From assembly GCF_025766255.1 (NCBI RefSeq), contig NW_026516669.1, forward strand, positions 310,001 through 374,000: a DNA stretch of 64,000 nucleotides. Reading direction: 5' to 3'. Under the pieces are notes generated by a model. The model saw nothing but the letters and a program-made list of their open reading frames with translations. It had not been told where the DNA came from and did not search any database. Positions within the stretch are counted from its first letter, which is position 1. Every line of letters starts with the position of its first letter. The position numbers and the translations under genes were made by a program. The DNA is from Zychaea mexicana. Its lineage: Eukaryota; Mucoromycota; Mucoromycetes; Mucorales; Lichtheimiaceae. Shown here in pieces: positions 8,240-64,000 of the stretch.

Positions 8240-9959
8240 CTAATGTTTATAGGAGCCCAGCTCGATGGGTGAGTATGGTGAATCTGAATCACGGGGTTTT
8301 TTTTGCATATAAGAGGGCGGGTTTAAGGAATTTGGACCTTGCCACTGACGCTCCTGAACAGTCCATTGCTTGCTGACTGAATCACTTTTTAAGGAGCCCA
8401 TCCCTGTGTCGCTATCCTCATAGAACGTGTTGTTGGTTGTCGCTCCCAGAGTCGAGCCATTGTTCGTTCGTTCAAGGGTGCAGCTGTTTTCTTCATCATT
8501 GCTGTTTCCAGTGGATTTGGATCTGAGAGCAGCGTTGGAAGTGATTTTTGGACTAGACATATCGATAGATGGAATGAAAAGCTCGATAAATAATAATATT
8601 ACAGTAAGATGGGGATATTCCTTCATGTATATACATACCTCATCACAACCACTAACTGAGCAAAAATAATGGTGACTCCTGCTAGGTTCCACCATGCTGC
8701 ACCCATAAACAGACTTCCGATCGTATTGTTGATGATTTCTTCGCGTAATGCAAAGTAGAACAAGCAGATCACCGCAAAGCCCCAGACAGCGATAACAAAT
8801 GCTGCGACGATGAGCTGGATCTTGAGAATACCAGTCTGGACGGCGGCAAAGTGTCCACGCCGTCTAAAGTTATTGTGATGCCCCTTCAAGATTCGAACGA
8901 GGCGAACACCTGCATAGAGCACTGCTGCACCCAAGCCACCACATTCAAGAGTCCAGCATGCGTAGTGCACTCGTGCAAGTGCTCTTGCGGTTTGAACGGA
9001 GGTCTCAGCCAAAATACCTGCAGAAACCGAGAACCAAGTGTTTACAAAGAAGGGCGAGAACAGGAATATGCCGCCCACAATATCGACAATTAACGGAGAC
9101 GGAAGCCAGCCAGATACGTTGCGACTCTATAATCATTTTGAAAAAAACACAGCAAAAATAAAACGCATCAATTAGAGAATGTTTGAATGCAAATAGAAGG
9201 AACAATAGAAAGAAGATTGGTTTAAAGCGTACTTGAGAGATCGTCTGTGCAATGCCGATCAAATAAAGGGTGACACCGCCGTAAGCAAACTCAAACCCTA
9301 ACTCAAAGAAAACTAAAATATGAAAGAAATCAGTAAAGTTGAGATCGGGAGGGGAACGATGATCTATAAGGGAAAGGTTGGTCGATGATTTACATGATCG
9401 GAAGGCATAATTGCGGGCTATGTCGAGCATAAGAAATACGCTTTGCAATAAGTGAACTATGAATCAAGCAAACGTTAGATAGAGTGCACAGAGCCAATTA
9501 ATTTCTGTTGTCCCGACATCACGGAATATTAAAAATCAATTTATTACTTACGAATGCTATGGATTACGAAGAACAATAGCATGCTATCCACAGGTTTGGG
9601 CTTGAGAAATGCTCCATTCATGGATCCGTGGTTCCAGATAGTATGACCTTGTATGCATAGTCGGTATATAAGCAGCACAAAACCTATTATGTGTCATTTC
9701 GTTGAGAATGAAGCGACATGAAGGCCGCGACAAAATGACAAAAGAAAGTTTGATTATATTGGAGGGAATTACAAACAAGACGAGGTAGAATAAGAGCGAG
9801 ACACTAAAAGTGCATACCAATAAGACCGCCAAGACCGGCAATTGCAATGTTGATTATACTAATGTAATGAAGACCGACATGTTCTTCACAGTTTTGTATT
9901 TCGAGCCGCCAGTCGCAATGACAGACACCGTTCGAGCATTGCCGTGCTAATGAGTCCAT
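8240..9959 (-). CDS. Array gene A: seven-transmembrane protein with Cys-rich N-terminus, 405 aa
   Basis: Six exons: 9959-9818, 9683-9552, 9456-9394, 9312-9233, 9126-8639 and 8552-8240. Intron phases are 1,1,1,0,2, as in the other five-intron copies. The short N-terminus carries the family signature C-x4-CHCDWRL-x4-NCEE and lacks a cleavable signal. TM1 (IINIAIAGLGGLIG) spans intron 1. A basic loop ending LKPKPVDSM leads into TM2; TM3 contains YLIGIAQTISQ; TM4 follows SGWLPSPLIVD; TM5 contains AAVLYAGVRLVRIL; TM6 and TM7 follow a basic loop. The tail begins SPKITSNAALRSK and ends SPIELGSYKH, the most diverged C-terminus of the ELTSYE-type copies. Positive-inside charge suggests an extracellular N-terminus and cytosolic tail, as in GPCRs. 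Function unknown. Confidence 0.85.
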
Positions 9960-11790
9960 AACGAATAGCAGAAAGAGCAAGTAAAGATAGGAGTGGATAT
10001 GTGTCGAGATAGAACATCCTTTTCGGATCAATCAAAGCTTGGGTGACACCAAATGCCTTTGTGCTGCTTACAAGCACGTTCGCTCTATGCTCCTAACTCA
10101 GCAGTGGGAACAAATGAATTGACACAGAAATAGCTGTCACTCCCACTTCTTTACAGTAAAACATTTATACGTTAATATGCACCCCAAAATTCTTACCGGT
10201 TTGTGCATAGCTAAAAGTACGGTTGTTTAATACCGGCACCTATTACACTAAAAGATACATATTCGCAAGTCATGATTAGGTCACACAAGAATAGAACTGT
10301 CACGCATTATCATACACGGACGGCGGCTCGGTTCACATGTATGGTCTGGGCGCACAAACGGTGCACAAAATGATTACAGCGCCTTGGTGACTCTGCTAAA
10401 ATAAATTATTAGCGCACTGATGGTATGCAATGAGCAACGGTTGAAGAATTTACCCCAGAATTGGTCCCTCAATGATTTAAGGAGGTCGTTACAAACTATC
10501 GCCGCCGCCGTCGCCCATCCGTAAAGGGCCTGGAAGCCAAATGGGGTTATCTAGAAAAAGTGCATTGGGAGAAAGGGGATCGTCGTATGACATAAGAAAG
10601 AGGAAGTATCTCGTCGGTAGTAAGACTTTACCTCCTAACCGGAAAAAAACACCGTTCCTGATCCTCAGTCAAATATTAGTGCCAGACGCGGCATAGCACG
10701 GAGAAGAACCCTGCTTTGCTCATACAGTAATCTGTATGCTCTTCCTTCCTTTCCTCCTTAATTGCTTTTTCGGCGTTTAAGCTGAAATTAGGCGCATTGA
10801 AGTAACTTGGACAAATTATAGATAGTGTAAGAATTTCCCTTTATGTCAAGCTAGCTCTACTAATGATTCTACCGACAACACTGGGGTTGCAAATACAAGT
10901 AAGCAATAAGCTTTTCTTTTGCCTTTAAAATCAAAGGACAGATTATGTTTCTACATGGTTCAGTAGCATGAACGCATGCTTATTTTTTCAAAGTCTATAC
11001 ATTTTCGACGTTCTAATTTACTAAAGACCCGATCTCATTTTTTTTAGAGACGAAGATTATTTGATTAATAGAAGATCCAAGAAGCAAGCTGCAACCACGC
11101 GCATCATTGTGTGCAACATTAAAGTGGAGTTTAATACATGTAACATGAACTCGATAAGAAATTAATGGCAACCCGAGCTTGCAAACCCGTCAACTACATG
11201 GCAAGTGTCACCAGTAGCGGGAATTGAGCAAAGAGAGCAATCAATACTTACTGTCTCGGCTCTAAATCGACTAAAAAAAGGCATCAGTGTAACTACCTTT
11301 GAGCGAAACTATGGGTGAAAACAGCTGTGTATATTACTACCACGTATTACACGATGATTTACAACAGCCTCATTAATATCCTTTCAATAACAGAAACATA
11401 GTACGCTAAAAAGATAATTTTACAAGTGCTAAAAACGCTAAGAGAGCTTACCACCTTGGAACTTGAGGAACATCGTTGCAACATGAGGCAAAAAAAAGCG
11501 GTGTAGTGGGAATGCTCGGGTAGCATAAAAATAGTGATGGGGAAACGCTCAATAGCCTAAATACTGTATAGTACCACAATGACAGAGATGTTGCTTTTAA
11601 ATACTGTAATCGGGCAAGTTCATTATCTACTATATAGAGGCTAGTGGAGAAGTAATGTAAAATTCTGTTACTCGAGTTGTCAGGTCGAAATGACTTAAGC
11701 TAAATATATGTACAATGCATTGATAAAACAACATTAGAGAGCAAAAAGTTACAGAAAATAAGGGTTTTACATTAAGAGCGTAATGCTTAT
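9960..11790. other. Intergenic DNA inside the array (1.8 kb)
   Basis: AT-rich, no long frame and no convincing family relic. A short patch near 10500-10560 (GCCGCCGCCGTCGCCC followed by a run containing GCCTGGA) stands out by base composition only. The upstream 200-300 bp should hold the promoter of gene A. Confidence 0.5.
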
Positions 11791-13489
11791 CTATCTATAA
11801 TGTGGCAAAGCTTCCACTTGATCCTGCTCGTACGATGTTAGCTCCAGCTGTGAGGATGCGTTTGACCCACGTCGACTTGGTGTACTGGCGCTCAGAAAAT
11901 TATTCCATGGCTTTTTGCTTTTGTTCAATTGTCCTTGCTGTGAATTCCACTGTTCCTCTCTGCCATTTGCTTCAATAGCATACAATATTGCCTCGGTATC
12001 GTCCTGAGAAGTAGCAGTCATGGCACCGATAGTTGAGTCACCATATCCGCGTGGATCAGGATGCGTGCTTGTTGTGTAATTGCTGGTGCCATTCGTTAAG
12101 TTATTTGATCTTAGTGCAGGATTATTCCTCATGTTAGGACTACGTAATGATACACAAGCGAACAAAAATAGTATAAGTATTCATGTTCACATGTGCAGGG
12201 ACGTAGAAATAAGTCTACGGCCATCTTTTGATGTAGCTCAAACTTGCCTAACAAGTACTGATATCAATGCTATCAGTGTAGTGAAACTTCCGAGAATTGA
12301 CCAAGTTGCACCAATGAAGATGCTACCTACAATGTTTGCCATAATTTGGTCTCGAAGTGCACAGTACAGCAATAAGATTGCAGCAAAAGTCCATAGACAA
12401 ATGATGAACGAAGCAGCCATCAATTGGATTCTGTAGATCCCGGAAATTACAGTCGCAAAACTGCCCCCTTGTCGAAACTTTCGGTGATGGCTTTCTAATA
12501 CACGAACAAGTCGAATACTTGCATAAAGAACAGCGCCACCAATGGACGCGACCCAAACAAACCACAGCATGTAGGATACACGAATTAGAGTCTCGGCTGT
12601 ACCGATAAGGTTGTTTTCAGCTGCAGCACCAGCACCAATAGCAAAAGATACGCCACAAATTAACGGACCAAACAGAGCAATAAAGCCTGTGATGTCGACA
12701 ATAAGCGGTGATGGCAGCCATCCAGCGGCTGAACTACTCTGTTGTAGTCCTTAATGTTACTTCTCAATTGATATGATGGTTTTATATACAACAAAATCAT
12801 GCACGTACCTGGGATATAGTTTGTGCAATACCAACCAGATATACCGTAATACCTCCGAGCCCAAACGACCATGGTATCTCCCAAAATACTATAATATCAG
12901 ATCAGTTTCGTAGTTCAGCCCCCACATCCATCCCCACACTCAAAGCACACATGTCAGAAAACTTTACAGGACCGGGCGATCCAATTATCGGGAACCGCAT
13001 CTGTCATCAAAATTGCACTTGAAATGACTCGAACTGGCCGCAAATTTATGAGTTACTTGTTTTTCTTCTCCCCGTTTCCCAACCCCCTTCTCTTTTTTTT
13101 TGTTCAACTATCTTCTTACGGGCATTAAACGCTATGAAAAGGACAAGCATGCTATCCACCGGTCGTGGCCGTAAGCATCCCTGCGTAACCGCAGGAGAAT
13201 TCCAAAGGCTATGCCCTTTAACAAGCACTCGATGAACAAACATAGCGGCCCCTAGTTTTAATGGTCAGTGGGGGTTTGCCTTTTTCTTGGTACTCCTAAG
13301 CAGCATGGCAAATAACTCACCGACTACTACAGTCAACGATGAAACAGCAGTGCTAATGGCGTTTATATGCCACATGGCCACACTTTCTTGACAATCATGG
13401 ATGCTAATGCGCCAGTCGCAATGGCATTCGTTGCCACCTTTATAGCAATGTCGATCTAGTGCCCGATTGGACAGGGAATTATCTGCCAT
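11791..13489 (-). CDS. Array gene B: seven-transmembrane protein with Cys-rich N-terminus, 428 aa
   Basis: Six exons: 13489-13321, 13251-13120, 13033-12968, 12888-12809, 12738-12248 and 12139-11791. Phases 1,1,1,0,2. The start MADNSLSNRALDRHC leads to the signature CHCDWRI and DCQES. The seven hydrophobic segments fall in the same places as in the other copies, with FNA at the exon 2 junction, EIPWSFGLGGITVYLVGIAQ in TM3 and LRDQIMANIVGSIF between TM6 and TM7. The tail holds NPALRSN, DSTIGAMTATSQDD and SSQLELTSYE but carries ten extra residues after the motif. Intron 5 (12247-12140) starts with GC instead of GT: the donor reads AG/GCAAGT, an otherwise perfect consensus, and phase and alignment with the other copies demand this join. 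Function unknown; see gene C for the best-resolved topology. Confidence 0.87.
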
Positions 13490-14787
13490 GAAGCTTCTAT
13501 CCAGGCTCAGAAAACAGTAGTAGATAATAAGATAAAGTTGGGCCTTTCACACCAGTGACGACGCAAAACCGGGCTGTGCACCTGCAGCTAAATACGTTCA
13601 ATGTGTGTTCATTTTTGATTCGCAGTAATTATCTTTGAGTGACACTAGAAGGTTGCAAAAGTACAAATAGGCCAGTCGCGTATTATTTTAGTTAAGACTT
13701 AAAGGCGCTTAAAGTTGGTGCATCATTCTCATGCTAGTGAAATTTGTCTCAACAGCGTAACTTCCATGCGACGGCCGGTTCTCAAAACACCGATCCATCA
13801 ATACGTTCAAGCATGGCTATACCGGTATTACAGGTTGCGTGAATGGCAGTCTCTAGAGCGCCATGCCGAAAAATACATAGCACAGTAGCAAAATCTTAGA
13901 CATGTTGTACAGTATACAGAATTATCCCCATGATTAACAGTTCATCATGTCTGCAAGGGCTATTGCAGCGCTATTATGTAAGTATGCATATTTTACCATG
14001 TAAAAAAAATCTATGTTATAAGCCAGAGATACCACAGTGCTGCGAGCAAATGTTTTAGTGTAACAACTTGTTTCAGGTACGGTTGCTAGAGAAACACAGT
14101 AAGAGGACTGCATGTACGGTATCAGGCACGGTTGTCACCGTAACAAACATATCAGTACGCACTGTTGCTAGAGAACCTGACAGGTGAAGAGATCCCTAGC
14201 AACAACGTCAGCAAACAGTCTACGGTTTTAAGTTAATATTAATTCAAAGATGAACAGCAGCTCCTTCAGTAATTTCAATCCTTCAGAAATCATGCCATCA
14301 TGCCTGGATCAAAGTAAGCATTCTATTATGGTGTTCTTGATAATAGATTGTACATCAGCAACAATGCTAATGATAGCACGAAGTTTGTTTTTGATAGATG
14401 ACGAGACGCAAGATACCGTGCTGCTGTATTTAAAGCAAAATATTTAGCTACTTCGGCATACACAAATGAACTAATTGATGTTTCGTTGGTAGACAGGAAT
14501 TTAAAGTTATTAGCATTGCAGGCAGTATATGATCATCCCTTCTTTTGTGAGTAAACTAAGATTAAAAGAAGCAGATCAACATAACAGTATATATATGTAG
14601 TTTGTCATGATATACTGTATTATTGAAACTATTGTTGGAGCGATATGGATGTATATAAAGGAAGTATAGTGATTGAATCAATAATGGTGATCTATTTGGC
14701 ATCTATCATATTAGAGGTATACGGATGGTTTGTGTCTAAGTTGGAAGGATATATATGAAATGCAGTGTGTGTATAAAAAATAAGCGA
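13490..14787. other. Intergenic DNA inside the array (1.3 kb)
   Basis: AT-rich with no gene-length frame. A short motif ACGGTTGCTAGAGAA recurs imperfectly around 14098-14180 (three related copies in about 90 bp). The segment should contain the promoter of gene B. Confidence 0.5.
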
Positions 14788-16421
14788 TCAGTGATGCTCA
14801 TAAGATGTCAATTCCATTTGCGAGGATGCTTCAGATTGTCGCCGCTTTGTTGGGTTTCTGCTGAAGAAACTTGTTTTGTTGATTTTTGGCGGTTCGTTTT
14901 GATGATACTGTTGTTGATTATAATGAACGTCACCATTATTTGTCTTGAGAGCATGCAGAATAGCCTCATTGTCGCCTTGAATCGTAGCAGACATGGCACC
15001 AATTGTGGATTGACCTCCAACACGCCGATCAGGCTGCGTGGTACTTGTTGCTGTATTGTCACTGCCGCTTCCATCCGTGGATTTCTTAGATCTTAGCGCC
15101 GCGTTTTTGCCCGTTTTGAAGCTGTTATGCGCAGTATATAATATCAAAAAGGAGGGTTTAAAACATAATGAGTATGCGCTTTAAGGACTTATGAATACAT
15201 AATATGTTAGCCTACTAGCTTACCTGGCCATAATTGATATCTCAACTATCAAGATAGTAACTCCTGCAAATTGATTCCATGCGGTACCAAGGAAAATACT
15301 ACCGATAGTATTTTCCATGATTTGATTTCGCAGAATCCCATACAGGAGTAAGACTAAGGCAAAGCTCCATAAACATATAGAAAATGCGGCCACCGCCACT
15401 TGTATTTTCAAAATACCAGCCTTCACAGCAGTGTCATCTGAACCTTGACGTAGCTTTTTGTGATGGGATCTTAATATACGGACAAGGCGATCACCTGCAA
15501 AGAGGACTGCAGTTCCCAAACCTCCTGTCCATATAAACCAGATGCAGTAGCTTACGCGGATTAATAGCTCAGCTGTTTGTTGATCATCGTGCACTATTGA
15601 ACCTGCTGCTAAGGTTAACGGTATACCGATCAGTGGTGAAAGCAGCGCGATAATGCCCACGATATCGACAACTGTCGGTGACGGCAGCCAGCCGGAGGCG
15701 GAGTTACTCTGTGGTTATCTTAGTTTAAAGTGGTAAATCTGGGTACGATAGCTGTTTATGGGGTACCTGAGAAATTGTTTGGGCAATGCCAAGCAAGTAC
15801 ATAGTAATGCCCGCCATTCCAAAGGACCACGGAAGCTCGTAAAGAACTAAGTAGATTATATGTATGTCAATGAAAAATCACGTAGAAACAGTTTCCCGTG
15901 CGTAGTCATATATATTCTACAACATACTTGAGCGAGCCAGTAAATTCCCAGCCCCAGCGTCTGTAACGAGCACCACACTAGTTGCCAGTCGAGCTAAAAG
16001 ATTGAGTGTTACTGCTGTGTTAAAAAAATTTAATAAATTAAACGAAAAGTAATAGATACCTCCATCAAATAGTACAAAAAACGAAAGCATACAATCAACG
16101 GGTTTGGGGCGTAAAAGCCCTCGACCCGATCCTCTATGGCTCCATAGAGTATGACCTTTAAGACCGATTCTGTGAATCAAGAGTGCGATTCCTGTGAAAA
16201 ACAGAGTTAGAGTTGTAAAGCGATAGATTGCTTTACCATTCAACATGATGCATACCTATGAGACATCCTAATCCAGAAATTGCAACGTTTAGAATGTTTA
16301 TATACCACATTGCTGTAGTCTCCTCACAGTCTTGTAGGGTGAGTCGCCAGTCGCAGTGGCAAACTGCACCAAAACAGTGGCGGTCGAAGGCACGGATAGT
16401 GAGAGTCGGGTCGTCAGCCAT
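14788..16421 (-). CDS. Array gene C: seven-transmembrane protein with Cys-rich N-terminus, 427 aa
   Basis: Six exons: 16421-16256, 16191-16060, 16014-15928, 15846-15767, 15708-15224 and 15121-14788. Phases 1,1,1,0,2. Order along the protein: N-terminus RAFDRHCFGAVCHCDWRL and DCEET; TM1 ILNVAISGLGCLIGIALLIHR; basic loop RGLLRPKPVDCM; TM2 around SFFVLFDG and LNLLARL; TM3 ELPWSFGMAGITMYLLGIAQ; loop SNSASGWLPSP; TM4 VGIIALLSPLIGIPLTLAAG; TM5 YCIWFIWTGGLGTAVLFAG; loop RLVRILRSHHKKLRQG; TM6 AFSICLWSFALVLLLYGIL; TM7 FAGVTILIVEISIM; tail of about 110 residues with NAALRSKKS, QSTIGAMSATIQGD and SSQMELTSYEHH at the end. The cationic loops 1 and 3 and the tail are predicted cytosolic, giving the N-out, C-in layout of GPCR-like receptors. 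No known family was recognised. Exon 3 is 21 bases longer than in genes B, D, E and F. Confidence 0.88.
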
Positions 16422-17145
16422 GGTTCGTCAGTAGTTGAGTTAAAATTGCAGCGACCGAGGAAAGACAAAGGTCGCACCATGGATCTGATGTATAACATCG
16501 TTCAAGTAAAAAAGGGTGACACACAGACGTTCAAAAGACCCAATAAACTAGGTTCATCGAGACTGTCTTCGTTTCCGAAAAAAAAAGCTTTTAGCGCGCG
16601 CAGCGACTTGGACTACACTGACTTTTCTGAAAGAAGATGGCATTGTAACTTTGACATGTAGTATCACAACAACATAGGTCATGGGGATGATGCGTGTCAA
16701 ACAGCTGTCAACAAACGATCTTGTCAAACGCGATCTTGGATACAAGATCACAGATCTGAGATGCATTCTGCATAGGCGGTCTCTTGAACAAATCAACAAT
16801 CAACGAAACCAGGAATATCATTGGAGGAACGGAAGAAATTTAAATAAGATTCTTTGATCTGGCTGATGCATATGCAAAAAAACAATAATTACGAGAAATA
16901 AATAAATAAAATTCTGGAAAGATGGAAAACACGAGCTAAACAAAAAGAAAGAGTAATAGTGGATGTATGATTGCGCGATGTAATTAGGTGAAGCCAAAGA
17001 AGGATAAACGACAATGGGGTATGTAAAAAAAAGAAAAAGCGGGAATGGCGGCCACTACTTAGAGCCGGCGGTGTTGACTGGTGGTGTTCTCCTATTATTA
17101 TAAGCGCCTGGCTCCATATGTATAGTAAGGAGGACCAGAGGCACC
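16422..17145. other. Intergenic DNA inside the array (0.7 kb)
   Basis: Promoter side of gene C and 3' side of gene D. AT-rich with runs such as AAATAAATAAATAAAA near 16900. No coding signal. Confidence 0.5.
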
Positions 17146-18745
17146 TTAATGATGATGATGTTCATACGATGTCAGTTCCAGCTGGGATTCGTTGTCCGAT
17201 GTACGTCTTTTGGGTATTTTGTTACCGAGGCCATTTTCCGCCAATGCGTTGTTGTTGAGCTGCTCTCGTCGTGCAAGCCATTCTTCGTCTTTTGCTCTAA
17301 GAGCATTCATGATGGCTTTATTATCAAAGGTGTCCGTTGCTCCCGATTCGTACGCTGATGCATGATTAAAATCAGCACGTGAGCTGTTGGATGCGTTATT
17401 GGTTCCTGTTTTGTTATCTGATGACGACCTGGTACGCAGAGCAGCATTCTCCTTTTTGCTGGGACTATATTAGCAGCCATGGTAAGTTAGTTCACATTTG
17501 CATTAAAAGCATAAATCATAAGGATGGTATTACCTGATAAGTACTGCCAGTTCTACAAGAAGCGTTGTAGCACCGGCGAGCAACGACCATACGACGCCGA
17601 GAAAGATGCTACCTTTGGTGTTTTCCATGATGTAGTTGCGCAGGATGCCATATAGAAGGAGGACAGTGGCAAAGGAATACAGACAGATCACGTACGAGAA
17701 AGCCGTCAACTGGATTTTGTAGATGCCAGCTTTGACAGCTTCGTAATTCTTCGACTGACGGAACTTTTTATGGTGGTTCCTCAAGATGCGAATAAGTCGA
17801 ATGCCCGCAAACATGACGGAGGTTCCTACTCCACCGGTCCAGATGAACCAGAGCGAATAGTTTATGCGGATCAACGTCTCGGCCAAGTGCAGATTTTTGG
17901 TTGCCATTGCGCCTGCTGCAATAGTAAATGATTCGCCGACAACTAAAGGGGCAATTATAAAAATGAGACCAAAGGCATCGATGGCTCCCGTTGAAGGTAG
18001 CCACCCTGAAGCTGAATTGCTCTAGTGAGAATAAAAAAAAACCCAAGAAAAAGTAATAAATGAGTTTCGACCATTGGGAATAGTGCTCCTTTTTTCTTTA
18101 CCTGAGCGATGGTTTGGGCAATACCAATCAGATACAAGGTAATGCCCGATAGGCCGATGGACCATGGAATCTCGTAAAGAACTGGGGCAAACATATTAGA
18201 TCAGCATTGCTTTTCGGACGGAACGTTAAAAAATGGAAATAAAGTTACATGATCGAGCAATCCAGTTTTCGTGAGCAATGTCCGTGATCAGCACCACGCT
18301 CGTCAAAAGTCGGACTACGGCAAACGAGTCAACATCAACTTCTATCGAAACAAATCGAGTTCGCTGAACTTACGAGCATTGAAGATAATAAACAGTAACA
18401 GCATATTATCCACCGGTTTGGGTCGTAGAATACCAGCACCTGGCCCTTTAGGGTTCCAGATAGTGTGTCCTTTAACAATGCCTCTGTGGAGCAACAACCC
18501 CGTAGCTATTTGGGAAGGAGATGTAAACTTTCGAAGCTGACGCATATCTTTATTCACACGGTCTGAAACGCTTGCATACCAAGCAAAATGGACAAAGCCG
18601 ACACTGCAATGTTTACCACATTGACGATCCACATTGCTTTGCTTTCTTCACATTCGTGCAGAGTAATTCGCCAGTCGCAATGACAAACTCCATCGATACA
18701 GTGGCGCCCAAAGGTCCGGAGGTTGGAAACCGGTCCGTCAGCCAT
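17146..18745 (-). CDS. Array gene D: seven-transmembrane protein with Cys-rich N-terminus, 416 aa
   Basis: Six exons: 18745-18580, 18505-18374, 18314-18249, 18181-18102, 18021-17534 and 17464-17146. Phases 1,1,1,0,2. The start MADGPVSNLRTFGRHC is followed by GVCHCDWRI and ECEES. TM3 reads EIPWSIGLSGITLYLIGIAQ; loop 3 reads RLIRILRNHHKKFRQS; TM6-7 contain LYSFATVLLLYGILRNYIM and GSIFLGVVWSLLAG. The tail starts SPSKKENAALRTRSSS, keeps a middle block ATDTFDNKAIMNALRAK aligned to the IGAM...EAIL block of other copies, and ends SQLELTSYEHHHH, the family terminal motif plus extra histidines. The last exon is read through to TAA at 17146-17148. Function unknown. Confidence 0.87.
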
Positions 18746-20527
18746 TTTTCGTCTTTATGAATGACGCGCAAAATAGCCGGTGAAAAAGTGGTTTTAAAAG
18801 AATGGAAGAGAAGGAAAGAAAGAAGGTGGTTCTAATGGAATATCCCGGATAATGCGCTGTCGATTAGTTCGTCTCGACTCGTACAAGCCAATTTAGGTTT
18901 CACAGGACTAATAAAGCAATCGGACAGCCATTTTAGGGTCGTACCTGGATTACAACCCTTACTGCGTTATCCAGCTCCGCTTTTGCATGTCAAACCCCTT
19001 ATATGCGTCTTCAGCCACATGCTGTTCGTCTGCACAGGTCCCTTTTAGCAAAACGGTAGGATGCACCGAAAATTTATCGCAAGCTTGCATGAAATGCATC
19101 AGTGGTATATACATATCAAACAAAGATTTCAAAGCATCACCTGTTTGAATGTCGTGTCAGCTCACCACACAATCAATATCCGCGGCTACCGAGTTTTTGT
19201 GCAATCAAGATTGTGTCAGCGCGATGGTTCTTTTTCTGTTTTCGAGCCAGTCACATGCCATATGTTGCGTGGTTATTATTCCCTCCCGGCGATTATGTCC
19301 TCGCGAATATGTAGAGGCAGTTATCTTTCGCTTATTAACGTGGCTGTTTTAAAGACCAATGTATTATAAAATGGTTGAAGGGCTATATTTCAATGAAAAG
19401 AGACGTGGCTACAAGTTGCTTTATAACGTTCGGCAGTATAAGATAAACAATGAAGCCTACTCCGATGGTAATAAAAAAAAGAAAAAAAGGAACAAGTTTG
19501 CAAGAGTGGTAAAGTCGGGTCATTGTTTTTAAGAACGTGAACGTGAACGTCAATGGTGTGTTTGGACTGTCTGTCACTATCGACGTACAGCTGCGAGAGC
19601 CTCTATCAGGATACGCTAATATATTCGATCATTTTGTATATAGTGTTAAAGTTTTACCCTCATTAAAAAAACCATTTTAATTTTCTTGGGCTCACTGTGG
19701 AACTTGCCTCGGCTGAAAACGTGGAGAGTCTATTATTAACACCACCAATGTTAATACAACGATGTGCAAAATAAAAAATCGACAGGCGATGATTTTTTCC
19801 GCTTTTTCATTTCCAGAGTACATGACGATGAGCACTAATCGTGGTACATATATAATTTAAGACAACCCTAAGTAGCCAGTGACAGAAAATAGACAGTAGT
19901 ACTCCATCGAACCATTTCATAAACGAATGACTTTGGATTACCAGTACTTTGGTATAGTCAGTCTCCTTCTAAGCGCGGAGTGGGGTACGCCGTAGCACCA
20001 ATATTAACAAATCAACTTGCCCACTTTTTAATATCTTCTGAGATTTGTGCGACACGAACTTGATGCCAATGAAATATACAAGGACAGCGTGTAATGCTAT
20101 ACTATCCAGTCTTAATCCTCGCCTACACCTCCGACGTGTAGTCACTAAAAATATGTACCCATCTCTGAATGCCTTTTTTTCCGTCATTAGATAAGAAGTC
20201 GTAATATGGTTGATCGCTTTAATGTCGTATTTTTTCCCAGGAAAACGAGGTAATAAATAGTGATTCATTAAGCTTATGTCATGATGATGTAGGTGAATGT
20301 CGCTAGTAAAACTACTATATGTACTAAGACTTTTAATAAGTATGAACTGTTGGGATAACAGCAAATGAACGTAGTGTAAATGAATGAGAGGGAAGTTAGC
20401 GAATAATGTAGATGTTGAATATACAATTAACGATAGGAAAGGGGCTTTATGTTAACATGGTAAAAGAAAGTGAGACGAGATATAGTTTGAAAGATTCATG
20501 GATCGTTACAAATACTTGTGACAGATG
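18746..20527. other. Intergenic DNA inside the array with an exon relic (1.8 kb)
   Basis: Promoter of gene D plus decayed sequence. Only a weak match to family exon 2 (about 20040-20160, listed separately) is visible. No intact gene. Confidence 0.5.
20040..20160 (-). pseudogene. Possible relic of exon 2 of the array family
   Basis: Read on the minus strand, the frame gives RRGLRLDSIALHAVLVYFIG. This lines up with the GWLRPKPVDSM-plus-TM2 segment of exon 2, with the PKPV residues lost; at DNA level TGGATAGTAT matches the conserved TGGATA(A/G)TATG. No neighbouring exon is intact. The similarity is short, so chance cannot be excluded. Confidence 0.35.
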
Positions 20528-22176
20528 TCAACGGTCGTCGTAGGATGTTAGTTCTAACTGGGAGGAGGCATCGGATGCACGTCTTATGGGTACTTTGTTA
20601 ATGAAAAAATGAGTGCTGAACTTTTTGTTGGCCCATGATAGCTCATACGGTGACGACTGCTGCTTATGTTTGCTATCACTGGCTTTAATAGCGTTCAAAA
20701 TGGCCTCGTTGTCGTCCTGGAACATAGTAGTCACTGCACCGATAGTAGACCCACCGACATTTTCTTGATCTGGTGCTGTGCTTACACCAGTTTCTGATGT
20801 AGCATTGTTGGTTTCACCAGACGAAGATTTTGATTTAAGCGCAGGATTGCTTTTCGATTTAGGACTGAATGATTGCATTGTTCTTCGTTTAATGTTTTGT
20901 CATCCGCATATACACTTATACAAGGAACCCAGCCTTTAGTGACCGATTATACATACCTAACCATCACTGATATCTGAACGACCAGCGTCGTAATGCCGCC
21001 CAAGAAGTGCCAGGGAATGCTGAGAAAGATATTAGCAGCCGTATTCGTCATGATCTGATCTCGCAGAATACTATACAGCAGCAGGAACGTAGCGAAACCC
21101 CAAAGACATACAACAAACGATGCCACCATCATTTGTATTCTGTAAATACCGCTTTTGACTGCTGTATACTTTGGACCATACCGAGCCTTCTTGTGGTAGC
21201 TTCGCAATATCCGCACGAGACGAACTCCAGCATAAAACACAGAGCACCCGATAATGCCTGTCCACAAAAACCAGGCGATATAGGTCAAGCGGACAAAGAT
21301 CTCTGCAGTTGGTAGATCACTCTCGGCCAACGCGCCTGCTGTAACTGCTACTGCAACGCTGCAAACAAAAGGGAGAAACAAAGCTGTAGATCCAAAAATA
21401 TCAACTACTAGGGGCGATGGTAGCCAGCTAGACACAGAATGACTCTATGGGGATTTTCTTGGTATCATCAGCATATACGCATCAAATGAGAATTGAATCA
21501 ACATCTGCTAACCTGCGAGATGGTTTGGGCAATCCCAATGAGGTACAACGTTATGCCTCCTAATCCGAAATCCCAAGGAATCTCGAAAAGGTCTAAAAAT
21601 ATGCTTATGAGATAATCATACAATTTTTTCTTTCGTTCTTTGGGAAAGAGTTAATCGTGCATTACAAGATCGAGCGATCCAATTGCCTGGTAGTGCGTCC
21701 GTTATGATGATCACACTGCTTAGCAACCGCACTAAATTAGTCGTGAATTAATAACGCCTTTCTTCTCATTATGTTTGATATTTCACCATTGTTCTTACAT
21801 ACAGGAATTAAACATGATAAAGAATATGATCATACTATCCACAGGCTTCGGTCGCAACCAGCCACGAGTTCCGGTACCGCCATTCCAGATTGTGTGTCCC
21901 TTGAAGAAAATTCTGTTGATCAACAGAACAATCCCTAGCCCCTCAAATCAGTTGTCAGTTTTTTAAACAAGATTCAACTCATGAAAGAAGGAAGGTACGA
22001 AATTTACCAATAACAGCTGTTATTGCCGAGATCGCAATGTTTACGATGTTTATATACCACATGACATAGCCTTCCTCGCAATCCTGTATGCTTAATCGCC
22101 AATCGCAGTGACATACTCCGATGGATCTGCAATGACGATCTATTGCCCGTATGATTGGGCTTGAATTGTCTGCCAT
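20528..22176 (-). CDS. Array gene E: seven-transmembrane protein with Cys-rich N-terminus, 423 aa
   Basis: Six exons: 22176-22008, 21934-21803, 21731-21666, 21592-21513, 21444-20957 and 20864-20528. Phases 1,1,1,0,2; exons 2 to 4 are exactly the same lengths as in gene D. The N-terminus reads RAIDRHCRSIGVCHCDWRL and DCEEG; TM1 INIVNIAISAITAVIG; TM3 EIPWDFGLGGITLYLIGIAQ; loop 2 is SSWLPSP instead of SGWLPSP; loop 3 RLVRILRSYHKKARYG; TM6 CLWGFATFLLLYSILRDQIM. The donor of intron 4 is GTTAGC, weaker than its homologues. The tail starts SPKSKSNPALKSKSSS, has GGSTIGAVTTMFQDDNEAIL and ends SSQLELTSYDDR. Function unknown; receptor-like topology is inferred. Confidence 0.87.
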
Positions 22177-24823
22177 TTGGGTATTTTATTTGGCCAAAGA
22201 AAGCCGTCGTGAGTAGCAAGAGATATGTAGCACTGGATTTAACAAAGGTGGTACATCTCGACATATTTATCGAGTTCCTGGATGGATTAAGCTACTGGTG
22301 ACACAGAACGTCCAGGTACTGCGATTGAACAAGCTTCACATCCTTGCCGATCCTTTCGATTTGACCGTTTACTCGCACATTATGATATTCAAATATAGAA
22401 AAATTGCCTCAGTATCATAGGTGAATTGATTCTCAAAACTGATTGCACTTGAGTTAATAATCTTTACTCCAAACACTTTATGGTCTCGGGGCTTTTGCTT
22501 TTATCGACCAACACGACGACAAGTAAAATGTAATTTTTGACCCGGACTGGTGTGATTTGAAGACGATGAATAGGGATCGATAAAAAGTTCGGATGTGATC
22601 AATAAGTGAAGTATCGTATAATAAGCTTAAATTATAATCAACAAATCGATGACAACGATAAAGCCGCATAATCTTTTAGTACAGCGATTAAAGTGGATGC
22701 TTCAGATCGTCGTAGATCGCTTAGTAGTATGTTTAGCAGAGGAAAATGAACCGTACAATAAATTATGCAAGTAAAGAGATAAAATCAAACAACAAGAGAT
22801 GATCTCTAATACGTGGTGCATCCACACCTTAAACCCAATTTGCAACCAACGGTTCAGTAGTCAACAATATATATATAATCTCGCACATCAATTCTTTTTT
22901 TAATGATATCTTTTCTTTTGCATAACGAGAGATATGTTGCTTTTTGACCCACATTCTCACGTACGTATTAGAGTATCAAGAGATTCAACCGACTTGAATC
23001 GAAGAAGTCCTCGAACAATTTGCTGGCGGCTCCGTAAAAAGCCTGGAATTTCTTAGCAATATTGCATACGACAATGGCCTGTTGACACAGTTCCTATTTA
23101 AATACTCTTATCGTATATTAAGAAGCTTAGAGTCTTGGACAAGCAAACAAAAAAAAACCTGCAGTTGTATCAGTCAACATTACTTTCGGGGGCAACGAAG
23201 CTACAAAGAGCAATGTTCTTGCCAATGTTGATATGTAGTATATAGCGGATGTCTCTTCGACACAGCCATCAGTGAAGTTGAGCCGGACAGCAGAATACAA
23301 TATTATTTTTATCACAATGTCGCAACTGTGAAAAAGCATAGTGCGTGAAGCTCTGTCATGATCTCAGGTGGCACCTTTTCATAGCACTTTTAGCAGGTCT
23401 GTGGTACGATCACACGTGGAAGAGAACGAGTATGATTACTGGTATTTTGTACGCCACAAAAGCAGTGTAAGATCGAGGTGGCACAAACACATAGTGCTAG
23501 ATAGCGCTTTATGATGTTTCCGACTCTTGCTTGTGCACCATTTCACGACTTTACCATTCGTATGTAATCGCTTTACTCACCACCAAGAATGCTAAGCATA
23601 TATCGTACCACTTACTGTGCGGATGAAGATCTCTGATTGTTTCATCTTCATACATGTTTCTTTCATGAAAGGGTATGAATGCATAGTTACACACCGTCAT
23701 AATACCAGGTGTATCTGACACAGAAAGTCAAAGTGCGCCTTCGTGAAATATATTAAATGTCATTTTACAATTCAGCTTTTTTTTACAGCGCCATTCCATG
23801 TGCTCGGTAAGGTAAGGTGATGATGACATACTCCGATGTCCCGTTTCTTTTTTCCCTATTTTTACTGACCTTATCAACCTTATTACTACCGCAGAAACTG
23901 CAAAGATGTACATACAAGGAGGTGCCGCCATCGATTTCCGAGCGTTCATGCAAGGAGTAGATGTTCTTCTTTATATCGTTGTATAAGGTTTTAGAGGAGT
24001 GAAAGACGAATCCTTTGCATTGAAGGAGAGAATGGCCTAGGACTCCGCCGCCAAACTTAATGTATGGCAGTACCTCCCCTTGAAACACGGATTTGCCAGG
24101 ATCAGGGGGCCTATGCTTAAATCAAGCTTCAACCGTAGCAAACCGGTAGCAGCCTTTATTTAGCATCTCATTATTGTTTTGATTACAGTCCAGTTTTGGT
24201 CACTACGCGTATAAATAGAAAAAAAATTATTAGATCGTGGCAGTACATACATTGCAAAAAAAGTATGTGGTTTTATACATGGTATCAGACAAAAACATAC
24301 CTAACTACCAAACATAAAAGATCTGGCTTCTTGCTATTTTTTTAAAATGGCTTGTTTCTCATGTAGCATGTTAGAGGGCATCATTGAGCGCTTTTCTCCG
24401 TAGACGACGAGGGATTCGTAAGGAGAAGGGAATGAAAACATCAGCAGCAGCAAGATGACGCTAGTAGGGGGTTGCTATTGCTGACACAATCACTTGCCCA
24501 AAAAAAAACACCCACGCCGGGGCTGTTGATACCCTGTTCATATATACCGAAGCGATACTAAAAAGAAATGAACTGTACCACGGTGGGACAAATAGTCAGG
24601 TTCCAGAACAGTAAGATTGTTGTGGACGAGTTTCATTAATGAAAGCATGTGTAAATTGTGTAACTAGATATCATAGCAAAACTGGTAGTAATAAATTAAA
24701 AGAAGAGTGAAGAAGTAAAATATAAAAGTAACGTAATTATAAAGTAAGTACAGTAAAAGGGTAATAGTTAGTTATGTGTTCTTGCTGCTATTAATTGTTA
24801 TCGGATCCTGGGAGATAGATAGC
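22177..24823. other. Largest gap in the array (2.6 kb), with a family relic
   Basis: It separates the five-intron copies (A to E) from the six-intron copies (F, G). It contains an exon-1 relic at 23195-23290 (listed separately) and an unrecognised minus-strand frame at 24088-23783 (101 codons, no domain, probably chance). The size of the gap and the relic suggest a lost copy. Confidence 0.5.
23195..23290 (-). pseudogene. Relic of exon 1 of the array family
   Basis: The minus-strand frame reads VRLNFTDGCVEETSAIYYIS followed by a hydrophobic stretch. It aligns with (D)WRL-x4-DCEET-x-MWYIN-(TM1) of the intact copies: RL, the Cys, EE and YI are in register. The preceding CHCDW cysteines and an initiator MAD are missing, and no usable downstream exon follows. 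Confidence 0.55.
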
Positions 24824-26804
24824 TTAAGTGATCAACTCAAACTTGGATGATCCACTATCATCTGTGTTTTGTCTTTTCTTCTCGTCGTAGTCATCGTCCA
24901 TAGGGGAATCGATGCCATGATCGAGTTCGATTTTTTCGTGAGATGGGGTGGTTTTGTAGTAGACGTGGTCTTGTTCTTCCAAGATGGGTGAGCCGGTGGC
25001 TGCCAAAGTATTACGTCCACCCACTGCGTGTTTTTGGAATACTTGTTGATATTGCAGCTGCTGCACTTTTAGGTCGCTCATGGCAACAGTATTGGCTAAA
25101 TCAGGATCGTCACTATTAGAAAACATTGTTGTCGATTGACCATAGCTGGTGGAGTCGTCATGCGTCGTAGTGTTGTATGATTTAATAGGGGGCCCACTGC
25201 CACTTGATGAATTCGTGGTGCCAAGTGCTGCATTCTTCTCAAATGTCGGACTGAACAAAAAGGAGTAAAATCATTGGTTTAAGGTTCAGATTCAATTCGT
25301 GCTGCTGTTGCCCCACCGAGTGTGCTAGAACAAATACATCCTACATACTTGATGATGATGGCCGCTTCGACAAATACAGTTGCTAGCGGTCCCAAATACT
25401 GCCACACAACACCAAGAAAGACGCTGCCGGCCGTGCTGGTCATGATCTGATCGCGAAGAATGCCGTAGAGTAGCAGAAAGGTGGCAAATGTCATGAGGCA
25501 TATAATAATGATGACCACAATAGCTTGGATCTATAAATATAACAGAAAAGAAATTAATTTCTTTTTGACACTCTAAAATTGTTTCAGATTTGGAGTAGTG
25601 ATAACTGACAAAATACCTTAAAAATACCGGTTTTTACAGCGCTATAACGTGGACCTGATGATTCCTTGAACTTGGACAGATGGCCCTTGAGGATTCTGAC
25701 TAAGCGATAACCAGCAAAAAATACAGCCGCACTGATTGTGGCGTTGTTGTAAAACCAGAAACCATACAAAAGACGTGTAAAGAGCTCGGCGATCCACAAG
25801 TTCTTATCGGCATAGGCCCCGGCTACAATGGAAAAGATATTATGGACTACAAATGGCCATAAAAAGAGCCAGGTACCGGCAAGGTCAACAATGACAGGCG
25901 AAGGAAGCCATCCACTGGAAATGGCTTTATGACTCTGTGAGGGAGACAAGAAGGTATCGGCATTAGCAAATCCAAAGTCTCGCATAACGAGTGTAGAACA
26001 GATGCACGAGTAAAGAGACAATCATACCTCAGCCAAGGTCTGTGCAATGCCAACCAAGTAAAGGGTGAAGGATCCGACGCCGATTTGCCAAGGTATCTCG
26101 AATACAACTACAAGCAGAAGAGGTATGAAGGAGCGTGAGTATAACATCTTAACAGAGCAGTTTCTTTCACATGTAGCGTACAACAACACGTTGAGTGCTT
26201 TTGAGGAAGACGAGGAAAGTAACGTGTACGTATCAAGAATAATGATGCTTACATGAGCGCGCAATCAAGTTATCAGGTGCGATGTCCGCCACAAGAATAA
26301 CGCTGCTAACCAGTCGTACTAGTGAAGGAAGGCAAACCCAGCAAAGAATTAGTGCCCTGTGTCATAAAAAGAATAGGCAACGTCGGGTCCCTCATTCAAT
26401 GAACTACTCACGTATATTAAAAAGAGTTAGTAGGAACAGCATCGCGTCGACTGGTTTGGGTCGTAAGCAGCCCCTGGAAGGTCCACGACTGTAATCCCAC
26501 AACCGATGGCCTTTAATGAATATGCGGTGTATAAGTAAACCAATGCCTTTTGCGAGAGTGATAACATGCGTTAGTAAAGGGTAAACAACAAAACGTCTTA
26601 AGCAAGTGATCGGCAGTGTGTATATGCTTTACCAACTGCAACAACAAGTCCTGAAAGGGCAATGTTGACAACATAGATATAATACATTGGTCTTGATTCT
26701 TCGCAGCCGTAAATAGTTAACCGCCAGTCGCAGTGACACACGCCATCGTCGTTACAGTGCCGTAATAGTGTTCTTTGACCCTCCATAGCATTTATTATTG
26801 GCAA
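24824..26804 (-). CDS. Array gene F: seven-transmembrane protein, six-intron subtype, 459 aa
   Basis: Seven exons: 26804-26633, 26546-26412, 26318-26253, 26107-26028, 25934-25617, 25530-25349 and 25250-24824. The first four junctions match the other copies. An additional phase-0 intron (25616-25531) splits exon 5 right after KTGIFK, between loop 3 and TM6. N-terminus: LLRHCNDDGVCHCDWRL and GCEES (an in-frame ATG at 26786 is an alternative start). TM3 EIPWQIGVGSFTLYLVGIAQ; loop 2 SHKAISSGWLPSP; loop 3 RLVRILKGHLSKFKESSGPR. The tail (about 140 aa) keeps the NAAL start but has QQLQYQQVFQKH in its middle and ends SSKFELIT, so the ELTSYE terminus is missing. Closest relative here is gene G. Function unknown. 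Confidence 0.86.
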
Positions 26805-27899
26805 TAGAGCAAAAAGAAGACCAAAACAAAAAAAAAAGTGAAGAGGAAAAAAAATGAATGGAGGGCCACTTTTTTATATGAAATGTCGTTTTCTAATGTT
26901 TCGATTGGCCTTGGCTATGTAACTAGCACCCATATTCAGATTCAGCTTATAATCGTTTCCGTAGGACGCCTGTGAAAAGGAGAGCGTTCAAATGGTTCTT
27001 GTGTGCAACGATGAAAACTTCGATCGCGTTTCTTTTTTTCCCTTTGGCCTCATTGTCAGAGCTTGCTCCTCTTCTCCTTCTATGTATATCGGTCTGCTCT
27101 CCCCCATTGCTCCCGCGGCAACGCTAAATGGAAATTTACCGCGCCCACCCACTTCCATCGCGATACCATGTTCCCCCTTTCGGGATCACAGTGCTGCTGC
27201 TGTACACGTGCTATAGACCTTCAATGTTACACACAGGTTGAAATGAAGGCGTTAAATAAGGTGATTGCTATTACGTGTCAGACGCGACTGCCTGTGCGAC
27301 TTCAGGGTCCTGGTGTTTCTCCAAGATATAAATTTAGGCACACACCAGATAATAGCAATCGTGCCAACTTTCTTTTTTGTTCTTGCTGAAACAACCATGT
27401 GTTCGCCCATCATGCATTAACAATGACGCTTTACCTCCGACAAACGGCGTGTTTCATATCACGTTTGCTTCTTGCTCCTAGACCATCACGCGTCGCGAAC
27501 ACAGATGCAATCACCATGGCAACAAGACTTGCTCGTTCCTTTCTTGGAAAATGAATATATATATATAATTTATTTGATGGCTAGCAACGGTTCACTGGCA
27601 TTCGTTCTCCCATGGAAAGAAACACCGGTTACCGAGACAAACAATAAGAGCTAATTAGGAAGGCAACAAAGGAACAAGAAAAACTATGTGCAATAGTGTG
27701 ATGACGAGAGAGGAGGAAGCGAGGGAAGCGGGAAGAAGTGGGTTGAATATAAAGGACATGCGTTGTTGCTGTTATGATATATATGTATATGTATATATTA
27801 TAATGCGGGGTGTGATGATTCTTCTAAGATGCGAGAGATAGTAATAGGAAAATAGTATATGTAAAAAAGAAAGAAAACGGCTGAGAGGGTGTTTTTTTT
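26805..27899. other. Intergenic DNA inside the array (1.1 kb)
   Basis: Promoter of gene F and 3' flank of gene G. It holds a poly-purine run (AAAAAAAAAAGTGAAGAGG) just upstream of gene F and an AT-dinucleotide tract at 27775-27800. No coding signal. Confidence 0.5.
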
Positions 27900-29893
27900 T
27901 TACCGGCTGTGATGTATCAGGCGGATCTGGGAAGAAAGATCGTCTTGAGGATCTTCAGGTTCCTTTTCAACGTGGGGCGTCCAGACAGGTTTGCTGTCTT
28001 GGTGGCGGTTAGCCGGAGAAAGACCGAGATTCGGTGCGTTGCCGTAATAGAGTTCATCCATGGGGATGTTGGAGCCTGTCAGTGTCTTGTCGCTCGAGAG
28101 GTCTGTAGACGAACCATTGCCGTTAAGACCGTTGGATCCATGGTGCCGATTACTGTGCTTTTGGAAGACTTGTTGGTATTGCATTTGTTGTTGCTTCAAG
28201 TCTTCGAACGCATGATGGCTGAGTGTTGCTTGGAAGCTCGTGTCGGCAGCGGCGGCAGCAGCATAGCTTGACGATTGCGTTTCTTCTTGAGTGGTGGTCT
28301 TTTCACCTCCGCTGGAGCTCTTCAAGTTGCCAATGCCGTCGGTACCAATGCGCGGGCTATTTCGACAAAGAAAACAACGAGTAAGTACAGTGCTTGCTAT
28401 ATTTTTTGTTGTTGCTCTGAGAAATCTTTAGGAGACGTACTTGAAGATAATGGCGATTTCGACACAGAGAGTTGCGCAAGGACCGAGGTAATTCCAGATG
28501 ACACCCAAGAAGATAGATCCGGGAATGTTGACCATGATTTGATCACGCAGAGCACCGTACATGAGCAAAAAGATAGCAAACATAATCAAGCAAGTGGAAA
28601 TGATACACATCACAGCGCGGATCTTTATCATTTCATGTTCTAGTTAGTCACCGTACATGTACTAATAAATGAGCAGAATAAAGTATGCTTATGGGTGTGT
28701 GTGTGTGTGTGTAATGTACCTTGAAAATACCGGTCTTGACAGATGCGAAGCGCGGACCAGAGGCCTGAAATTTGCTCAAGTGGCGATTTAGAATGCGGAT
28801 CAGTCGCATACCGGCAAACAAGACGGCCAAACCCAGCAGGAAACAATGCAGAAACCAAAAGACGTACAATACGCGCACCATGGCTTCGGCTACACCCAGA
28901 TTTGAGCGAGCATATACACCACCAATGATAGCGACAATGTTGTTCATGATGAAGGGTGCAAGGAAGAATGTCGATCCAATGAAATCGACTACGCGAGGCG
29001 AAGGAAGCCATCCTGTAGAAATGGCCTTGTGACTCTATTGAGATGTGTCGTCAAGGTTATTTTTTTTTCCACGTTTAGAAATGGTGTTTATAGCAACAAA
29101 CAAACAAAGAAGCACCAGAAACGCTAATTTCTTACATCAGCCAGAGTCTGTGCGATGCCGATGAGGTACAATGCAAATGCTCCGTAGCCAAACTGCCAAG
29201 GAAACTCAAACATGACTGCGCAAAAAATATACTTTTAGCTTCCTTGCCACCTACGCTTCCGTGTCTATTGCCATACTTTACAACTTACATTGTCGTGAGA
29301 TCATATCATCGGCAATATCAGCGATTAAAATAACGCTAGTGAGCAGGCGGACTATGTATACAGAAAAACAAAAAAAAAAAACAGAGTTAATGGATCGTCA
29401 CTCCACAGGGTACACGAAAAGAGAAAAAAAAAAGTTTTGAGCGGAGCACAAGAAGGGGCTCCTGGGAAACTTGGAAACTTACGAAGATTGAAGATCATTA
29501 ACGAGAAAAGCATGCAGTCAATCGGCTTCGGCCGCAGACATCCCTTGGAGGAAGCAGCGTCGAATAAGCGATGGCCCTTGACGAAGATACGATGGACAAG
29601 TAGACCGGTGCCTGTTATTATTATTGGAAGGTGCGTGATTGTGGTCACAAAACAAATTAATTACGATGAAGAAAACAATAAGGCCACACGATTTCATAAT
29701 TTTACTAGCGACATTTCTTTCAGCCCGTACCAATGACAAAAACGAATGCACAGATAGCAATGTTCCCAATGTAAACGCCCGTCATTGCTTTCGCCTCGAC
29801 GCAGTCTCGCAGCGTTACCCGCCAGTCGCAATGACAATAGTCTTCTGTTATGCAGTGGTATTCAAATGTGCGACTGTAAAGCTCGACTGGCAT
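27900..29893 (-). CDS. Array gene G: seven-transmembrane protein, six-intron subtype, 462 aa
   Basis: Seven exons: 29893-29731, 29611-29483, 29351-29289, 29215-29136, 29034-28720, 28622-28441 and 28356-27900, with the same extra phase-0 intron after KTGIFK as gene F. The start MPVELYSRTFEYHC was chosen because it places the family cysteine motif (YCHCDWRV, DCVEA) at the usual distance; the frame stays open upstream to 30193, but that extension is low-complexity. TM3 EFPWQFGYGAFALYLIGIAQ; loop 2 SHKAISTGWLPSP; loop 3 RLIRILNRHLSKFQASGPRF. The tail is long and hydrophilic, contains an alanine run and QQMQYQQVFQKH, and ends SSQIRLIHHSR. A (CA)n tract sits inside the loop-3 intron. It is the first gene of the array in transcription order. 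Function unknown. Confidence 0.86.
28693..28712. repeat. (GT)n microsatellite in an intron of gene G
   Basis: Ten GT units, read as (CA)n on the coding strand, a few bases downstream of the donor of the loop-3 intron. Confidence 0.9.
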
Positions 29894-63279: not shown

Positions 63280-64000
63280 TCAACGAGCTTCATACGACGT
63301 GAGCTCCACGTTGGAAGAAAACGATGTGGTTGATTCTCGCTTTTTTGGTTTTATCTTGTTCATGAAAAAATTGCTGTTTGTATTTCCGGATCCGTCTCCG
63401 TTTCCGTTTTCGTTTGATTGCTTTCTCTTTTCATTTTGCTGCAAGATTTGGTCCGTGTTCTTTAAAGCGTTGAGGATCACATCGTTGTCGTCAGTGAACC
63501 GAGACATCGTACCGCCATCTAATGTGGTCGATTCGAGCCTTCCGTCAGGCTGTGTTGTTGATGCTGTAAAATTTTCTCCTGTTGTTTCGTCTGCAGATCG
63601 TGTTCGTAAAGCAGGGTTCTGACTCTTGTGAGGACTGCATTTCAATGATTACATGAGTAACTAGGTATAACTCGCCTTTTCTGATCATCTTGCTATATAG
63701 CAGCAGTATGAAAGGAAACTTACTCGAAAATAATCAGCACGAAAGACAATAGTGTTGTTACTACTGCCAAAAGATTCCAAAGAACACCAAGGAATATGCT
63801 TGCCGCAGTTGTCCTGATGATCTCATATCGCAAGATGGCATAGCAAAGCAACAAGGTTCCAAAACTCCAGAGACATAGTGCCAAAGTGAGCGCCATCATC
63901 CGCAGTTTGAAAATACCAGCCTTGATATCTGCCCAGGTTGGACTATTGCGGTATTTTTTGTGGTGCTCTGTCAAAATACGTACGAGCCGGAGACCAGCAA
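63280..64000 (-). CDS. Array-family gene H, 3' part only (runs off right edge)
   Basis: Two exons are visible: 64000-63724 (open at the edge) and 63634-63280, joined in phase 2 like the fifth junction of the array genes. The visible part starts inside TM5/loop 3 (AGLRLVRILTEHHKKYRNSP), continues with DIKAGIFKLRMMALTLALCL, LLLCYAILRYEIIRTTAASIF and TM7, then the tail DPHKSQNPALRTRSA, a TDDNDVILNALK block and the terminal SSNVELTSYEAR. There is no intron after AGIFK, so it belongs to the five-intron type. It is separated from the main array by about 33 kb of housekeeping genes and repeats, in the same orientation. Confidence 0.85.

Follow-up and report, generated by a model that had tools for sequence, protein, structure and literature searches.

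What do seven related genes, lined up in one orientation in the genome of Zychaea mexicana (GCF_025766255.1; 50.3 Mb), encode, and how do their products relate to the known families of membrane proteins? The window, meaning the whole stretch of 64,000 nucleotides analysed here, covers positions 310001-374000 of contig NW_026516669.1 (here C262, with 828,902 bases). It contains an array of seven complete genes, A to G, found by spliced alignment on the minus strand throughout and with all frames open, which extends from 8240 (end of the gene A stop codon) to 29893 (ATG of gene G). The family has at least 12 copies in the genome. We consider it likely that the array encodes plasma-membrane receptors with the fold of G-protein-coupled receptors (GPCRs), lying outside any GPCR family matched by sequence and having a G-protein-coupled sensory role. 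This reading is built on the gene structure, the copies, the tree and the charge pattern, together with a predicted fold. The family is new and unnamed, of a known kind, and not a new kind of system.

Predicted fold and topology

AlphaFold2 models of genes E and G, calculated from alignments of 60 and 71 sequences, are both predicted to form a seven-helix bundle of the GPCR fold, and all 50 Foldseek matches listed per model are GPCRs. The sixth and seventh transmembrane helices (TM6 and TM7), at residues 242-282 and 284-310 in gene E and 239-281 and 283-309 in gene G, are separated by a single residue. In all 12 copies of the genome the N-terminus is net negative, the first intracellular loop (ICL1) has a net charge of +2 to +5 and the segment TM5-ICL3-TM6 one of +4 to +9, which by the positive-inside rule predicts the N-terminus outside and the C-terminus inside. 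Bundle and charge counts agree with the seven helices and outward N-terminus originally predicted. As far as predicted fold and topology go, the GPCR-like reading is well supported.

Four N-terminal cysteines, C16, C22, C24 and C33 in gene E numbering, are kept in 77, 77, 80 and 80 of the 80 sequences that have a residue at these sites, and cysteine occurs in more than half of the sequences only at columns 16, 22, 24, 33, 90, 211 and 262. Among the copies of Z. mexicana, similarity is highest in ICL2 (0.59 for the 12 copies, 0.76 for A-E and H, the latter a copy outside the array) and lowest in ICL3 (0.21 and 0.34) and the second extracellular loop, ECL2 (0.29 and 0.28). At the C-terminal end, a strict pattern (terminal S-S-Q-hydrophobic-x-L) is found in 24 of 84 full-length proteins, with 0.9 expected by shuffling and a maximum of 4; a loosened, post hoc pattern, set after seeing the misses, is found in 43 of the 84 (3.5 expected, maximum 12). 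Genes F and G and their relatives have a QQxQYQxVFQKH-like tail stretch, with a predicted helix in G. It is possible that these tail motifs are cytosolic docking sites. The word C[HYQ]CD is absent from the first 90 residues in 52 of the 146 relatives collected from protein databases, fragments counted.

Several results weigh against a GPCR assignment. Foldseek gives weak E-values, 1.3e-3 and 6.5e-4 at best, with TM-scores (target-normalised) that peak at ~0.65; the VIA root-mean-square deviation is ~4 Å, and the fold is itself a prediction from the 60 and 71 aligned sequences. In a Pfam scan of 41 distinct members out of the 146 (E <= 1; three of them also in a shorter form), no GPCR model passed the cut-off. 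A single-protein query against the sequences of the PDB gave zero matches, and the best PDB profile matches, an adhesion GPCR (E = 0.44) and then a neurotensin receptor (E = 1.2), are not significant. At the level of sequence, homology to any GPCR family is absent from these searches. DRY is the class A motif of TM3, and it is absent from the family, as are CWxP in TM6 and NPxxY in TM7. The TM3-ECL2 disulfide of class A is also absent, with no majority cysteine at the top of TM3 or in ECL2. Finally, the receptor-like expectation that the outer, ligand-side halves of the helices be less conserved failed: outer and inner halves have means of 0.482 and 0.491 (p = 0.37, not significant), and all outer against all cytoplasmic positions gave p = 0.12.

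Where the class A motifs would stand, the consensus of the family alignment has YLxGIAQTLADSHK at the end of TM3, CLxxFAxFLLLYG in TM6, and an NP without Y after TM7; CWxP and NPxxY are quoted as class A motifs in the available part of PMC12716839. Identity with animal class A GPCRs is 5-13% in the VIA-align alignments listed, and, in contrast to class A, ECL2 here has about five residues and a four-cysteine N-terminal element is present. In the genome, the class A model PF00001 gave one weak sub-cut-off match on C252, outside the array. Unlike in opsins, the TM7 consensus has no retinal-binding lysine; where members have a lysine within 284-305, it is at the first or second position in the ten listed. 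The class C model PF00003 was not found in the scanned members.

The fungal seven-helix receptors include STE3, Git3, PTH11-like/Fung_rhodopsin and cAMP-receptor-like proteins. None of their Pfam models, PF20684 of the PTH11-like/Fung_rhodopsin type included, was found at E <= 1 in the 41 members scanned, which bears out the earlier statement that the array could not be matched to the known fungal classes. Searches of the genome itself for STE3, Git3, PTH11-like (PF20684) and cAMP-receptor-like genes were empty with silent controls, so that absence of those four families from the genome is not established. At E <= 1, no Pfam family at all occurs in more than two of the members in any alignment; the best-scoring matches, each in a single member, are CATSPERD-E_C (0.0017), Ferric_reduct (0.0029, sub-threshold) and the nematode 7TM_GPCR_Sri (0.017), and NCBIfam gave six matches, one member each. 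A DUF373 assignment for gene E was rejected, since the match of a fragment (E = 0.012) is below the cut-off and fades to E = 2 for the longer protein.

Gene structure and copies in the genome

The gene models come from a purpose-written spliced protein-to-DNA alignment, followed by a direct check of the splice sites, tails and stop codons. Seven intact spliced genes on one strand were recovered in this way, as had been predicted, and the limits 8240..29893 then given are exact. Gene A (8240..9959, minus) has exons at 9959-9818, 9683-9552, 9456-9394, 9312-9233 and 9126-8639 and a tail exon at 8552-8240. Gene B (11791..13489, minus) has them at 13489-13321, 13251-13120, 13033-12968, 12888-12809 and 12738-12248, with the tail at 12139-11791, and gene C (14788..16421, minus; public protein P0004) at 16421-16256, 16191-16060, 15993-15928, 15846-15767 and 15708-15224, with the tail at 15121-14788. 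Gene D (17146..18745, minus; P0005) follows with 18745-18580, 18505-18374, 18314-18249, 18181-18102 and 18021-17534 (tail 17464-17146), and the modelled gene E (20528..22176, minus; P0001) with 22176-22008, 21934-21803, 21731-21666, 21592-21513 and 21444-20957 (tail 20864-20528). For gene F (24824..26786, minus; public model P0012) the exons are 26786-26633, 26546-26412, 26318-26253, 26107-26028, 25934-25617 and 25530-25349, tail 25250-24824; for gene G (27900..29893, minus; P0028), the other modelled one, they are 29893-29731, 29611-29483, 29351-29289, 29215-29136, 29034-28720 and 28622-28441, tail 28356-27900.

The conserved exon plan of the original prediction holds for the phases, which at the five junctions common to the window genes are 1,1,1,0,2, and for exon 4, which has exactly 80 nucleotides (nt) in all 12 modelled copies. 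The number of exons varies: A-E have six each, and F and G have seven because an additional phase-0 intron divides the TM5-TM6 exon. Exons 2 and 3 measure 123-135 nt and 63-66 nt in the modelled copies. Among the introns of the window genes a single one departs from GT-AG, the GC-AG intron that comes last in gene B (~12247).

A search of the genome with P0001 and P0028 (E <= 0.01) gave matches confined to C262, C239, C268, C51 and C43. In spliced models, the five loci outside the array, H (C262), I (C239), J (C268), K (C51) and L (C43), each have an open core of seven helices and follow the exon plan of the array; the models cover these cores, that of L without a fixed start codon. The 3' part of H (63283..64000, minus; protein P0085), the eighth member in the window, lies about 33 kb from gene G and is truncated where the window ends on the right; its matches (C262:373283-374996) reach C262:374996, ~1 kb past the window.

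Some public gene models of the array look flawed, namely those of A, B and F. P0056 (gene A) begins within exon 2, P0048 (gene B) begins within exon 3, and P0012 (gene F) has 11 residues in place of 5 at the exon 1/2 junction.

Relatives, phylogeny and age

The best match from another species is P0002 (E = 3e-112, 56% identity), which is far beyond chance. Relatives were sought in ~5.8 billion proteins; two of the searches restricted scoring to the 7999 and 7997 candidates with the most words in common, and distant relatives elsewhere may therefore be missed. From the 146 distinct relatives found, every named one belongs to Mucorales or Umbelopsis, going by genus names (with lineages looked up for five taxa), and the remaining ones are unnamed, mostly metagenome-type entries. 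The protein search run to E = 1 gave no relatives between 5e-35 and 1.

A FastTree phylogeny was built from 101 sequences. It used 90 of 121 proteins, with 8 from the window contig replaced by our own models; 23 were left out as fragments, near duplicates or unnamed metagenome-type entries, some of them full-length, and P0118 was dropped from the 102 aligned sequences for low coverage. Proteins that came up first in the search run to E = 1 stand outside the tree. Gene G groups with Circinella, Fennellomyces, Dichotomocladium and Lichtheimia (support 0.974). Beyond these close relatives its clade has weaker support, 0.80-0.89, with Backusella joining at 0.893, Phycomyces at 0.803, and Rhizopus and Mucor-type copies at only 0.796. 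Gene F groups with Circinella, Phascolomyces, Fennellomyces and Lichtheimia (0.99), in a wider clade (0.987) that adds Umbelopsis, Absidia repens, Halteromyces, Radiomyces and Phycomyces nitens. Copies I, K and L fall in a divergent group (1.0) that they share with several genera, Mucor, Lichtheimia and Circinella among them.

Genes A-E and H form one clade (1.0), whose sequences come solely from four genera of Lichtheimiaceae: Zychaea, Circinella, Phascolomyces and Fennellomyces. The array had been described as lineage-specific, which is right for these six copies in the tree but not for F and G, whose clades reach other Mucorales. Gene A has short-branch counterparts in Circinella minor and Phascolomyces; cross-genus counterparts of A, C, D and E (support 0.88-1.0) imply that these copies are older than the genus split, B and H being less well placed. 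In Circinella minor, INT45_012863, 012864 and 012866 are the counterparts of A, C and E and keep the order seen in Zychaea, on contigs of equal listed size, and this order and shared size suggest, without proof, that the array is conserved there.

The seven proteins share 38-58% identity across the seven-helix part. Among their genes the proportion of synonymous differences (pS) is 0.70-0.83, near saturation, and that of nonsynonymous differences (pN) only 0.26-0.42, so the copies are old and under purifying selection. The dN/dS ratio gave no estimate for the gene pairs because synonymous sites are saturated in most of them. With all frames open, the array is an old duplication kept by purifying selection, as the earlier reading of the sequence had it.

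Candidate roles and genomic context

If the proteins are receptors, the short extracellular N-terminus, with its four conserved cysteines presumably joined in disulfides, would be a small cap above the seven-helix bundle at the cell surface. An extracellular ligand would bind beneath or beside this cap and displace TM3, TM5 and TM6 at their cytoplasmic ends, and the shifted bundle may activate one of about 12 G-alpha subunits. The disordered C-terminal tail, with its recurrent terminal S-x-x-L-type motif, may serve in receptor regulation or sorting. We suggest that F and G would be older, more widely shared receptors, and that A-E and H may have arisen by duplication followed by diversification within Lichtheimiaceae, probably for different cues.

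The genome has 12 strong G-alpha (PF00503) loci, on C283, C240, C85, C258 (2), C223, C233 (2), C41, C239, C29 and C251, and one weak single match. This is as many strong loci as the twelve G-alpha genes reported for Mucor circinelloides in the accessible part of PMC6936849, where the receptor of its pathway is left for identification. Chances seem evenly balanced that the array and its relatives are the founders of a separate class of GPCRs restricted to Mucoromycotina, which would consist of a widely shared core (F, G and the dispersed I, K and L) and diversified tandem chemoreceptors of Lichtheimiaceae; they would be the missing receptors for the G-alpha subunits of Mucorales, an unusually large set, and trisporoid or other lineage-specific signals may be perceived by some of them. 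Together, this large G-protein set and an unnamed conserved family with a predicted GPCR fold, an expanded array and relatives across many Mucorales offer specific genes for deletion or expression, which would make directly testable what Mucorales sense and via which receptors. It would also add a GPCR family overlooked by domain-based surveys. As far as their available parts show, a GPCR catalogue in eLife 2025 includes the Rhizopus delemar proteome, with new families built from choanoflagellate receptors (PMC12716839), and Krishnan 2012 gives one glutamate-type receptor in R. oryzae (PMC3251606). In the literature we recognised no description of the family, judged by titles and abstract openings of the papers listed, under a coverage with most subscription journals outside it.

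A GPCR-like bundle could also work without G-protein coupling, as a scaffold or trafficking factor, a role proposed for plant THH1/TOM1/TOM3-type proteins. We regard this as unlikely, though it is the strongest alternative: the canonical class A coupling motifs are absent, outer and inner halves show no significant difference in conservation, and one member, P0076, is named by a source with a THH1/TOM1/TOM3 domain. However, P0076 has zero Pfam matches at E <= 1, and the genome gave zero matches to PF06454 (THH1/TOM1/TOM3), with a silent control. The listed fold matches are all receptors, although a GPCR-like scaffold would yield the same list. A weak structural link to THH1/TOM1/TOM3 is also described, in the part of PMC12716839 available, for RSF (Remi-sans-famille), a recently proposed GPCR family. 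Like the array proteins, RSF is a single-domain seven-transmembrane protein; unlike them, it has a short helix and the motif NxLQxxMNxL between TM6 and TM7, where the array family has its one-residue gap and a consensus lacking the motif.

As a sub-case of the GPCR reading, some members could be receptors for the trisporoid mating pheromones of Mucorales or for further signals of an apocarotenoid or lipid kind, which we find rather improbable. The accessible part of PMC5705715 presents TAR1-3 of R. microsporus as proposed trisporic acid receptors, specific to Mucoromycotina; they are seven-transmembrane receptors like those suggested here, but are assigned there to class C, in a cluster with gamma-aminobutyric acid (GABA) receptors, and the class C matches (PF00003) of Z. 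mexicana are on C255, C112, C284 and C79, with one gene above the cut-off and none on C262. Nine published TAR oligonucleotides were translated in six frames and compared with 121 proteins. The sole exact match was a 4-residue word in two non-Rhizopus proteins; the eight Rhizopus-type members (seven named, including P0067 and P0070 of R. microsporus) gave no exact match, and near matches of 4-5 residues with one mismatch. Identity of the array family with the published TAR1-3 candidates was rejected on this test, with the reserve that the oligonucleotides may be non-coding or strain-divergent. The neighbourhood does not favour the trisporoid sub-case either. Eight long open reading frames (ORFs) around the array were scanned, a set that may miss small or spliced genes; seven matched KH-domain, PfkB kinase, heavy-metal P-type ATPase, Arb1, SH3 and Rax2-like proteins (the last in two ORFs, one sub-cut-off), one matched nothing, and a mating-locus gene was not recognised among them. 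To our knowledge, none of the matched families belongs to mating loci, and a location of the array within the mating locus finds no support in these eight ORFs.

A seven-helix transporter, channel or membrane enzyme is very improbable, since beside a non-significant fluoride channel match in the PDB profile search (E = 7.6) and the single sub-threshold ferric-reductase match (1 of 26 members), all 50 structural matches listed per model are GPCRs and no Pfam or NCBIfam family recurs in more than two members of an alignment.

Upstream of the seven genes, no 8- or 9-mer is shared by at least five of the 600-base stretches. Four 7-mers are shared by five, against 1.6 expected and a maximum of 5 in 50 shuffles, which is within the shuffled range. 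Among the neighbouring genes, an Arb1-type Argonaute chaperone subunit is encoded at 43908-44948 (minus; PF09692, E 3.7e-56), and at 47631-54626 (minus) an SH3-domain protein, hydrophobic in part of its N-terminus, adjoins the Rax2-like ORFs.
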